Source: Verrucomicrobiaceae bacterium (lineage in GTDB: Bacteria > Pseudomonadota > Gammaproteobacteria > Pseudomonadales > CAMLJR01). From it: 64,000 bases of DNA. The notes under the pieces are model-generated. The model made no database searches. It was not told the origin of the DNA and was given only the letters and a program-made list of their open reading frames with translations. The stretch is taken from the NCBI GenBank assembly GCA_028293825.1, contig JAQGNY010000039.1:62001-126000 (forward strand), given 5' to 3'. Numbering within the stretch: position 1 is the first letter of the stretch; every line of letters begins with the position of its first letter. Of this stretch, positions 3,104-27,415 are shown piece by piece. A program made the position numbers and the translations under genes.

Positions 3104-4465
3104 TCAATTGCGCGTGGGGACGTAGTCCAAATGCGCAGCCGATTTGCCGATACCTTCGGGGCCGTACAATTGCACGCGGCGCTCGATCCACGCGGCGAAA
3201 AAACGAATCAGCGGCAAATCGTGTTCGGGACCGGATTGCTGTACGAATTTTTCCAGCGGTATTTCAGCTTCGGTCCAGCTGCTGTAGCGTTTGCCCAAAA
3301 TCGGCGCCAGATCATCGAGCGTGAGCTGCTCCAAATCCGCAGCCATTTTGTCGGAGCGGACGATCGTATCGACCAGATTCTGAATCGATTGTTTTTGCGC
3401 CGCTTGCTCTTCATCGCGCGCATCGATACGCGATACCGAATCGGCAAGCATGTGCAGCAAAATTGTGCACGGACCCGAATTTTCCACCAACGGTTTTGGC
3501 GTTTCGATTTTTACGTCGAGCGCATCCGACAACGTGATTACGATGGCGCGGCTCAGCGCCAACTCCCACTCCATATACACATCGTGCGGCGAACCGGGTT
3601 GCGGATTAGCAACTGTTGCCGCGACCATCATCGACTGCACCGTCGAGAACAACACCGAATGAAACCGCAGTGCGTCGTAATCGATCGGCGCGCCGGTGAC
3701 GTCTTCATAGTGTTTCCACAATGCACGCACATCGTCGCCGACCGGCTCGTACGGATCGCGAATGCGCATCGCCACCAAATCACAGACTGGATCGCCGATT
3801 AAGCTCGCCTCGAAATCGAACAGCGCGGTGAGCTTGCCGTCTTTGTGCATGAATTGCGCGGCATCGTAGTGACTGAATACACGACGCGTGCGATCTTTCG
3901 GCACATTGCGTCGCACCCAATTCAAGGCGAATTCGATCAGCGGTTGTGGTTTGCTTTTATTCCGTTGATACAGCGGAATAGTTTCCGTCAAGCCTTCGAG
4001 CGCGACGGCTTCTGCTCCTTCCGGCACTTCAAGTCCAACCTTCGCAAATTCTTCGACCGGAATTTTTTGCGTCTCGATCATCGCCTCGACATATTGCCGC
4101 CCAAGCGAGCGTCGCGCTTCATCGTTAGGCGCAGTCGCTACATCGCGCGAACCGGGTACAGCGTCCATCACAATGGCAATCGGGTCTTCGCAAAAACCAA
4201 AAACGTGCGGCACTTTAATGCCGTGCTTTTCCAGCACCTGCAAAATATTCGCTTCGCGACGCAATTCCGGGTACGGCAGAATATCGGCATTGCGATCGCC
4301 GCGAATATAAATCGGCACGACTTTGCCATTCACTTCGACATCGGCAAACCACGCTGGGCGCCAGCGAATTTGGCGTTCCAATTTGATTACGCGCCCGCCG
4401 GTGACTTTTTCCACGAAGGCATGTAATTTTTTTTCATCGTTATTTTCGTTGAGTACGGTCGACAT
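3104..4465 (-). CDS. APH-like phosphotransferase family protein
   Basis: A 453-residue protein with the choline/aminoglycoside-phosphotransferase kinase fold. The Brenner motif reads FSHYDAAQFM and the metal-binding loop reads ALFDFEASLIGDP, giving the two Asp residues needed for phosphotransfer. The Asn that normally ends HxDxxxxN is Met here. The N-terminal lobe (about residues 20-110) carries WFADVEVNGK and REANILQVLEKHGIKVPHV; about 130 extra C-terminal residues follow the kinase core. Proteins of this kind are common in catabolic clusters of lipid and steroid degraders with unknown small-molecule substrates, so antibiotic resistance should not be assumed. The start has GAGAGAAAGCA just upstream. 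Two 23-bp-spaced direct repeats lie 18-60 bases upstream. Confidence 0.75.
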   Translation of the reverse strand: MSTVLNENNDEKKLHAFVEKVTGGRVIKLERQIRWRPAWFADVEVNGKVVPIYIRGDRNADILPYPELRREANILQVLEKHGIKVPHVFGFCEDPIAIVMDAVPGSRDVATAPNDEARRSLGRQYVEAMIETQKIPVEEFAKVGLEVPEGAEAVALEGLTETIPLYQRNKSKPQPLIEFALNWVRRNVPKDRTRRVFSHYDAAQFMHKDGKLTALFDFEASLIGDPVCDLVAMRIRDPYEPVGDDVRALWKHYEDVTGAPIDYDALRFHSVLFSTVQSMMVAATVANPQPGSPHDVYMEWELALSRAIVITLSDALDVKIETPKPLVENSGPCTILLHMLADSVSRIDARDEEQAAQKQSIQNLVDTIVRSDKMAADLEQLTLDDLAPILGKRYSSWTEAEIPLEKFVQQSGPEHDLPLIRFFAAWIERRVQLYGPEGIGKSAAHLDYVPTRN

Positions 4466-25493: not shown

Positions 25494-25591
25494 GGCGCGC
25501 TCGCGCCTTTCCATCGCTGACGCGGCTGCACAGCATCAACAAAATCTAAGAAGTAATCGAGATTTCCTACGCAAAAGTAGACGCCACCTAG

Positions 25592-25951
25592 CTATGGCGT
25601 TTGTACTCTATTTACCGCTGCATACCAACGAGAGCTCTGATACAAATATGGGTAAATTACAACGCAAAACATAGTATCGCGTTCTGGCCACCAATTTGAC
25701 TCTGAGGTTGGCACTGATTGAAACGCTACATGCTCAACCACGTAACGAAATTTGTACTTCGAAGCCCTTGGATTGAGTTCATAAAATGAATTAGGCAGAT
25801 GTTCGCTTGTTATCTCGATGGCACTACCAACCTCTAACTGGGAGATACGTCGCCGCCATATCTCATCTAATACGATCTCGATTCCAGCGTCACCTAGATA
25901 TCTCTTGTGTATCTTTTTTTCGATACGCCTATTCATCGCTGAGTGAGCCAT
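25592..25951 (-). CDS. Small hypothetical protein in an integron cassette
   Basis: A 119-residue frame I do not recognise. It is rich in charged and aromatic residues, with no signal peptide or membrane helix. Its ATG at 25949-25951 lies within the R' box of the attC site upstream, so it begins right at the cassette boundary and has no ribosome-binding site; this is common in integron cassettes. A start at the second Met (MNRRIEKK) is equally possible. No attC was found after its stop, so its cassette appears truncated toward the SDR gene. Coding status is probable rather than certain. Confidence 0.5.
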   Translation of the reverse strand: MAHSAMNRRIEKKIHKRYLGDAGIEIVLDEIWRRRISQLEVGSAIEITSEHLPNSFYELNPRASKYKFRYVVEHVAFQSVPTSESNWWPERDTMFCVVIYPYLYQSSRWYAAVNRVQTP

Positions 25952-26080
25952 AACGCCGCGTTAAGCGGCAGTTTTTAAGTTGTAGTTTTGTGGAGTAATT
26001 TGCGCAGAAAAACCACAAAATACGACCTAAAAACTGTCCAGTGTAGCGAAGCAGAACGGTGCTGCAACGACTTGTTAGGC
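25948..26080 (-). other. Integron attC recombination site (133 bp)
   Basis: Read on the minus strand, the site opens with R'' GCCTAAC at 26080-26074, a five-base spacer AAGTC, then L'' GTTGCAGC carrying the family's extra base. It closes with L' GCTTAAC, spacer GCGGC and R' GTTATGG at 25954-25948. This follows the aadA-type attC plan box for box. The centre is an imperfect palindrome: 25969-25993 pairs with 26013-26036. The HNH gene's TAA stop lies inside R'', as in typical cassettes. About 22 bases on one arm are unpaired, a mild asymmetry. Length is within the normal attC range. Confidence 0.85.
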
Positions 26081-26887
26081 GCGCCTCGCTGTGTAGATTG
26101 ACTTTAATTTTTCTACTGACATAGCTGGCTTTTCCGTATGTACCATTACATGGCAATTCGGGCATAAAGGAATTAAATCAAGCTTTGGATCAACAACATG
26201 CTCACCTTGGTTGCTTGCAAGATCTACTCTATGGTGTACATGTATATAATTTCTTCCAATTTCCCCATATTCTTTTTCAAAATTAATAGAACACACGCTG
26301 CAATTATAACAAAAGTGTTCTAGGCACTTTTGTCTAACTAAGCTATCACGCTCTATTGCTGTGGAGCTCACTGAAAATCTTTTACCTTCAAAATATACAA
26401 TTTCTTCCGACTTTTTTGTTCCCTTGCATTTTGCTAAAGTCCACCTCACATTTTCACCATCTGCTACTGATGAGTCCGATGCTAGCCACAATATTTGCGG
26501 ATCAATATCTGTTAAAGCCGCAGGACGTTGGTGTGCATACCCCAGAATTGCATTTTCTTTATCAAAAATGTAATTTCCTGTTATTTCAAATACACATTCA
26601 CGGCGACCATTTGCAGTGACAATGACTTGGTCACCAATTTCAACTTCTGAATAAAGATTCCATAGGCTTGGGCCAGCCATCATTGCATTAGAAGTGTCTG
26701 ACTTTACCAATTTTATTTCTGAAGAAATATCTTTGCTGTTTTGAGGATTTAAAATTGATAGATCTCCAAGATCAGACCAACCAATCGCTACCCTACCTGT
26801 TTCTTTCATTTGCTTTAGAGCTTTATCTGACTCTTCATGGTGGGCAACCAATCTCCAAATTTGCATAATTTCTCCGATTTCGCCTAA
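25954..26887 (-). mobile_element. Complete integron gene cassette carrying an HNH nuclease gene
   Basis: The unit runs from the TT of a GTTAGGC core (minus strand, 26888-26882) to the G of the attC R' box at 25954, 934 bases in all. It contains one gene with a 20-base leader and the 133-bp attC, the standard layout of a mobile cassette. The sequence is visibly more AT-rich than the flanking chromosomal genes. No integrase gene or attI site is seen in the window, so the array is either an orphan (CALIN-like) cluster or the result of an off-site insertion. Confidence 0.8.
26075..26866 (-). CDS. Predicted modification-sensing HNH endonuclease (EVE-like + HNH)
   Basis: A 263-residue two-domain protein. 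Residues about 1-130 (MQIWRLVAH, VAIGWSDLGDL, SLWNLYSEVEIGDQVIVTAN, EITGNYIFD) resemble the EVE/PUA-like domains that bind modified bases in McrB- and MrcB-type restriction proteins; this is recalled similarity. Residues about 185-255 form an HNH module with two CxxC zinc pairs (CSVC, CPNC), HVHHRVDL as the catalytic His pair and LCPNCHVMVH as the final Asn/His part. Together they suggest a Type IV-like enzyme that cuts modified DNA, such as phage DNA. GGAG lies upstream of the ATG. The gene sits in a single integron cassette and is unusually AT-rich. Confidence 0.75.
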   Translation of the reverse strand: MQIWRLVAHHEESDKALKQMKETGRVAIGWSDLGDLSILNPQNSKDISSEIKLVKSDTSNAMMAGPSLWNLYSEVEIGDQVIVTANGRRECVFEITGNYIFDKENAILGYAHQRPAALTDIDPQILWLASDSSVADGENVRWTLAKCKGTKKSEEIVYFEGKRFSVSSTAIERDSLVRQKCLEHFCYNCSVCSINFEKEYGEIGRNYIHVHHRVDLASNQGEHVVDPKLDLIPLCPNCHVMVHTEKPAMSVEKLKSIYTARRA

Positions 26888-27415
26888 CAGGTTGTTAGTG
26901 AGGCAATCGGCCTCACATTAATTATTAATAGGTCGACCTTTTTATTTTTTTGAGTGATTTTTGGCATCGCCAATCTCTGGTTAGAGAAAGGGAAAGTATA
27001 GCGAGCTTTTTGCCAGTTGTTCTTATGTCAAGGTCGATAGCGCCAAAGGTCAATAGAGCCAGGCTTTGGTCCAAAACCATACGAGCCAACTAATTACGTC
27101 ACCGCTCCTGCGCGATCTCGCAGAACTATTGCGCCATCTGCACCGAATAACTTCCGCAACGAGCGCCAACTTCTTGAAGTAATTTTTCTGCCGACTCGCT
27201 CGGCGCAAAAGGTGAGGCTCGACGTCCGTATTGTGCCCTTCCATAACGCGTTAATTTACCGGACGGTCAGCAATATCAATTGCGCTGCCTGAATCCTCGC
27301 ATTACATTGCAAAACGCCGCAATTTCGCCGCTCGGCGATTAATCGCTTGATCAAATCGAAAGACTGGCACGCATTTATAACAATTAAAACACTGCATCAA
27401 TCAAGAGGTACCCGC
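26867..27415. other. Cassette remnant and P450 upstream region
   Basis: From right to left on the minus strand the stretch has an attC-like half-site at 27241-27254 (TTAACGCGTTATGG), a short ORF (listed separately), then a 7-bp hairpin GTGAGGC/GCCTCAC at 26899-26917. It ends in a CACTAAC-AACCT-GTTAGGC boundary resembling L' and R' boxes at 26882-26900. The part next to the P450 gene (27255-27415) holds a good ribosome-binding site and no other clear signal. Confidence 0.45.
27050..27244 (-). pseudogene. Short ORF, probable degraded cassette gene
   Basis: A 64-codon frame starts at the ATG inside GTTATGG, the same boundary arrangement as the cassette ORF at 25951. It begins MEGHNTDVEPHLLRRASRQ and is very rich in Arg and Trp, with no recognised family. 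After the stop another frame remains open for about 40 codons, which suggests a frameshifted or non-coding remnant. No complete attC lies beside it. It may be only a cassette-end sequence rather than a gene. Confidence 0.3.

Follow-up and report, generated by a model that had tools for sequence, protein, structure and literature searches.

The locus described here, flanked by a P450 gene and an SDR gene in the window (by which is meant the whole 64 kb stretch of DNA that was analysed), is best read as an insertion platform for gene cassettes that has no integrase beside it and that is one of a family of dispersed attI sites; cassettes would enter such a platform by the action of an integron integrase (IntI) supplied in trans, and in the present genome the platform is probably frozen. 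On the sequence evidence, a probability of roughly 0.8 seems appropriate for this reading. It draws on the presence of an attC and an attI at the locus, on the absence of intI in cis, on the occurrence of attI in multiple copies with attCs on the correct side only, and on the replacement of cassettes at intI-less loci in relatives. Read along the minus strand, the layout is attI, HNH cassette, attC and a further ORF of 119 residues (Table 1).

Table 1 Features of the locus, with positions counted along the window.
Feature	Coordinates	Strand	Evidence
Gene cassette 1 (TTAGGC ... attC ... G), 934 bp	25954..26887	minus	Ends lie at the crossovers of attI and of the attC R' box
Cassette ORF, 263 aa, putative HNH endonuclease	26075..26866	minus	Pfam HNH; PADLOC; 6ghc; Vibrio plasmid homologue
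ORF of 119 aa, ATG in R' (GTTATGG)	25592..25951	minus	Position; no relatives; no attC after it
attI, 57 bp, crossover between G26888 and T26887 (CCTG^TTAGGC on minus)	26882..26938	minus	Model R3, 54 bits, E=1e-8; homologues about 200 bp upstream of intact intI (G038, others)
attI hairpin GTGAGGC-cgatt-GCCTCAC, adjoining the L half of the site	26898..26916	minus	Covariation over 66 sites
attC of cassette 1	25948..26080	minus	PSSM and pairing score 41.6, null maximum 28.6
Expected intI stretch	26943..27346	plus	No intI and no recognisable remnant (tblastn, translations)

The attC site

The attC is genuine. A first-pass annotation of the window had described four recombination boxes, two five-base spacers, an extra base in L'' and a central palindrome in the order of an aadA-type attC, and all of these are indeed present on the minus strand, where the sequence from 26080 to 25948 reads GCCTAAC-AAGTC-GTTGCAGC ... 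GCCGCTTAAC-GCGGC-GTTATGG. The boxes are R'' (GCCTAAC, 26080-26074), L'' (GTTGCAGC, 26068-26061), L' (GCCGCTTAAC, 25969-25960) and R' (GTTATGG, 25954-25948), with AAGTC and GCGGC as the spacers and the palindrome lying between L'' and L'. GCCTAAC fits the R'' consensus RYYYAAC, and the inverted L''/L' boxes have the spacers of 5-6 bases and the extra base in L'' expected of an attC; R' departs from its consensus GTTRRRY at two positions, as is also seen in some accepted attC sites. The same annotation correctly placed the stop codon of the upstream gene within R''; it is the TAA of the HNH gene. When the region is folded as single-stranded DNA it is more stable than its dinucleotide shuffles (z = -2.4).

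Scoring was by a two-half PSSM combined with a pairing term, trained on 72 attCs taken from related arrays that adjoin intI genes in genomes of the same order, the window being left out. On this scale the window site, at 41.6, exceeds the 75th percentile (39.0) of true attCs and the median (36.3) of those left out, while the maximum per 64 kb in 60 simulated windows ranged from 17.5 to 28.6 and the second-ranked site in the window itself reached 19.5; the scan finds one attC in the window. A home-made covariance model of attC (R1), built from related arrays, recovers known arrays in the expected orientation and at the window attC gives only a wrong local alignment of 7.8 bits, with the whole site left unaligned, probably on account of the long loop, the pairing of 5/7 R-box positions and the weak L stem. 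A scan of the region against Rfam returned no match above gathering scores.

The attI site and its hairpin

The attC is preceded, at a distance of about 0.8 kb, by a 57 bp element that the first-pass annotation missed. The minus-strand sequence just before the HNH gene is TAATAATTAATGTGAGGCCGATTGCCTCACTAACAACCTGTTAGGC, with the core GTTAGGC at its end, and this element is matched by a model (R3) trained on 23 attI sites from other genomes only, with no sequence of the window's genome among them. Across 398 genomes of the phylum R3 finds matches in just two, the window's genome (G000) and G038, and in G038 the homologous site precedes an intact intI by about 200 bp. The family adjoins intI also in G232, G292, G107 and others, the sites in G292 and G107 being upstream of the gene. 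Judged by its sequence, the element is a bona fide attI, that is, an integron insertion site with no integrase beside it; since the cassette begins at the attI crossover, the locus would be a proper insertion site in which merely the integrase is wanting.

The hairpin within the site is conserved as structure. Over 66 sites, in an alignment that was itself fitted to the structure, 96% of cells are paired, compensatory changes occur in 7/8 pairs, and none of 500 shuffles reaches the observed score; when the hairpin is slid along the same sites as a control, the paired cells drop to 21-50%. A plain MAFFT alignment of six sites likewise gives an 8-bp hairpin, with compensatory changes at five pairs. 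When the sequences ahead of the attIs were searched for a conserved Pc promoter, the signal was not above that on the opposite strand, and the attI motif had no match in plasmids or viral contigs.

Distribution of attI copies

The attI site is found in 37 of 392 genomes of the order, and in most of these 37 it is multicopy: there are six copies in a single-contig genome (G232), four each in G181 and G242, and seven, the maximum, in the window's genome. At 61 attI loci, picked by score and genome completeness rather than at random, a near-complete intI stands in cis (within 1.6 kb upstream) at 9, a short fragment at 17 and neither at 35, which leaves 52/61 copies without a near-complete gene. 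A search for the integrase family in 16 attI-bearing genomes returned between none and three integrases each, with none in G181 (at E 1e-30), a fragment only in G242, and intact IntI genes in G078 and G301. In G301 two full-length integron integrase genes are 2.7 kb apart and point the same way (C3:146606-147553 and 149354-150295).

Within one genome the copies share about 87% identity from -40 to GTTA and 27%, the random level, starting with the fifth base; to the left the identity fades gradually and is at background by about -180. This positional profile is that of an attI, shared up to G^TT and followed by different cassettes. Downstream of the copies, within 2.5 kb and on the same strand, an attC scoring 28 bits or more is present at 33/47 loci, as against 0/47 on the opposite strand and 0/47 upstream.

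In the only relative in the same genus (G001) an attI heads two attC-bearing cassettes and there is no intI; in that locus (L067, C136, 6783-8454) the cassettes encode a DUF3644 protein and a 158-aa ORF, the attCs are strong, and the locus lies at a contig end. In the window's genome, where attCs were sought by model and in selected stretches, other integron remains are found on C34 (attI at 124138, attC at 123525), on C29, C48 and C11, and on C16, whose left end has an array. On C11 (L129) three degenerate attI copies stand in tandem, at 1764-1816, 2642-2696 and 3245-3300, alternating with single ORFs (a 215-aa protein, a SpoU-like methyltransferase and a 90-aa ORF), as though every attI headed its own one-gene cassette; no attC could be recognised between them.

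Integrase genes

That the window holds no intI, as the first-pass annotation had stated, was borne out by tblastn with 28 IntI proteins, the best match having an E value of 0.015 and lying outside the stretch in which the gene would be expected; the locus is not, in other words, a complete integron with intI in cis. Elsewhere in the genome an attC also occurs at C34 123525 and a cassette array on C16; for intI, only pseudogenes were found, with no intI above the curated cut-off in the genome. One of these pseudogenes adjoins the attI copy on C29, and consists of an N-terminal part and, downstream of it, an IntI C-terminus that contains a TAG stop. With only pseudogenes found, present recombination activity in the window's genome is unlikely and the array there is probably frozen. 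The exception would be an intact intI hidden in a gap of the assembly, which is possible because the C16 array exits its contig towards the side where intI would stand.

The C16 array itself (L092) occupies positions 1-2600 at the left contig end, and 40 kb from it, near 12040-12290 of L068, there is a decayed intI fragment with frameshifts. XerC and XerD were also absent from this assembly at the curated cut-off, the best XerD match being one of 110 bits (C51:4906-5697); an assembly gap or a divergent Xer may account for the shortfall.

Cassette replacement at intI-less loci in relatives

The question of whether such platforms can be used once they have no integrase beside them is best approached through G242, G078 and G301, which are three species of one genus. 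At one pair of orthologous loci (L144/L163) the upstream flanks are 92% identical up to the crossover, the cassettes that follow are unrelated (1.4 against 3.5 kb), the far flanks are again 92% identical, and neither species has intI there; a second pair (L145/L166) shows the same, with 92% identity in both flanks, unrelated cassettes of 1.35 and 2.2 kb and no intI in either. In a third pair (L143/L170) the upstream flank is 94% identical, the cassettes differ and intI is reduced to a remnant of 30-40 residues; both junctions are exact, at G^TTA of attI and at G^TTATGC of the last attC, with 98% identity beyond. In another genus the same pattern of replacement is seen at the left end of L137/L172. 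There, counted from the crossover, the two sequences become homologous again at about +930 and +802, at the R'' box rather than the R' box of an attC-like sequence that both share, and our reading is that this swap kept an old attC-like half.

Since the flanks are shared and neither species has intI there, intI was most likely already absent in cis by the time of the exchange, whose simplest agent would be an IntI encoded elsewhere in the genome; G078 and G301 have intact ones. It is also possible that alleles were exchanged with, or replaced from, strains of another history (intI in cis, for example), or that different deletions of one longer array produced the differences between species.

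The mechanism we propose, then, is that the attI family consists of short sites (57 bp, with the conserved hairpin), several per genome in this order and mostly without intI in cis; that recombination between such an attI and a folded attC would bring a cassette in at the G^TT of the attI; that the catalyst would be an IntI encoded elsewhere in the genome; and that in the window's genome, where only IntI pseudogenes were found, the array would now probably be frozen. We infer that IntI in trans made the exchange in the relatives and did likewise at the window locus, and the order of events is arrived at in the same way; the HNH cassette (26887-25954) would, by analogy with those loci, have been inserted at its attI. 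A wider formulation, on which the integron is a distributed one, with one integrase serving many stand-alone hairpin attIs of about 55 bp and cassettes being captured and exchanged in trans chromosome-wide, the window's lineage having lost the integrase, seems to us finely balanced between true and false.

The most serious competitor is a simple relic, a once complete integron whose intI was deleted and whose array has been dead since, with no activity in trans. The intI fragments at the expected place in 17/61 attI loci are what this would predict, as is the intI pseudogene beside attI on C29 of the window's own genome, and loss of intI with retention of arrays is known in Xanthomonas (PMC12444791). 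Against it, replacement of cassettes at exact junctions in orthologous loci that have no intI in either species calls for an integrase after the loss, and attI is far better conserved than its flank. The relic is a reading to be taken seriously, though we think it somewhat doubtful.

Other readings of the attI element

Dispersed attI sites served in trans presuppose that the 57 bp element is an attI, and three readings that deny this, or deny it a role, were considered and rejected. The element might be a short, divergent attC, in which case the locus would be an array with two attCs; its two halves do resemble R''-L''-L'-R' with a short stem, and the three degenerate copies on C11 alternate with ORFs. 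Its left half, however, has a conserved TAAT where a RYYYAAC box should be, and it is found at the head of arrays rather than after ORFs, and about 200 bp upstream of intI, which makes this reading improbable.

More improbable still is that a single cassette landed in an ordinary genomic site (attG) and so gave rise to a lone attC, or, as the first-pass annotation had put it, that this is an orphan attC or an off-site insertion between two metabolic genes. Insertion at attG is an accepted route (PMC12901181, PMC12444791), and one attC without intI in otherwise metabolic surroundings would suit it; the left boundary of the cassette, however, is no random sequence but the attI at 26882-26938 (R3, E=1e-8), a 57-bp site with a conserved hairpin, homologous to attIs that adjoin intI. 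Least probable of all is that the palindromic element is a dispersed terminator-like or REP-like repeat that ends in GTTA by chance, since, although it is multicopy, has a hairpin and is terminator-like on the plus strand in a pattern scan, its copies stop exactly at the crossover, attCs occur only downstream and in the right orientation, and several genomes have one copy at the attI position of intI.

Relation to known integrons

Much of what is described here (attC, cassettes, the loss of intI, CALINs) is already known. With chromosomal (sedentary) integrons the locus shares attI, cassettes and attC in canonical order, a stop codon in R'' and the crossover at G^TT; it differs in having no intI in cis and in belonging to a genome with several short attI-headed arrays, whereas a sedentary integron has one array and one intI. 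"CALIN-like", the label given in the first-pass annotation, holds loosely, for a cassette without an integrase, but not by the default of IntegronFinder 2, which asks for two attCs where this locus has one, and the locus in addition keeps a recognisable attI at its head. Single-attC loci that arise by insertion at attG (PMC12901181, PMC12444791) similarly have a lone attC distant from an integrase, but the insertion point here is an attI and not a random attG. The inactivated integrons of Xanthomonas (PMC12444791) also retain an array after loss or truncation of intI; in that case, however, intI belongs to one conserved locus, downstream of ilvD, while the attIs described here are dispersed and in many copies, and relatives show cassette turnover after intI loss. 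In delta-attI-type cassettes of class 1 and 2 integrons (PMC12901181) attI sequence is likewise found away from its own intI, but there a partial attI replaces the attC at a cassette end, and here a full attI heads the array. In the open-access literature no description was found of multicopy stand-alone attI sites or of the present attI hairpin (which is weak evidence of novelty).

In genome surveys, cassette arrays without an integrase are about as frequent as complete integrons, and attI sites other than those of class 1 are poorly described and are not detected by IntegronFinder (PMC9024848), so that array heads of the present kind would go unseen. The usual reading takes integrase-less arrays for debris or for stray insertions. 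Should they have an attI of their own, and should a distant integrase still use them, the cassette system would be a network rather than one locus, and a genome would offer more positions for expression than has been assumed. In practical terms, the covarying hairpin provides a model with which to find attI sites outside class 1, undetected by current software, and the orthologous intI-less loci of sister species make activity in trans directly testable.

The cassette gene and its neighbourhood

Besides its Pfam HNH match, the cassette ORF is matched by PADLOC models over its N-terminus (PDC-S02) and its C-terminus (mREase_IV), and the ORF also matches EcoKMcrA (6ghc); its N-terminus is of a type that occurs in candidate defence proteins. 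A Vibrio plasmid protein is 67% identical over the full length, and no attC was seen on the flanks of the plasmid gene. From these matches the product looks like a modification-dependent restriction enzyme. Defence genes are common in integron cassettes, and a defence-like cassette gene fits that pattern.

The 119-aa ORF that follows the attC has no relative among 84,980 species or in plasmids, and a PSSM and pairing scan found no attC 3' of it; it may be a second cassette whose attC has been lost, or else old flanking sequence. Comparison with an empty site by way of the P450 gene had no material to work on, none of the relatives carrying that gene, and no locus orthologous to that of the window was available among them. 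A hairpin at 25577-25604, terminator-like on both strands, spans the stop codon of the 119-aa ORF, between this ORF and the convergent SDR gene.
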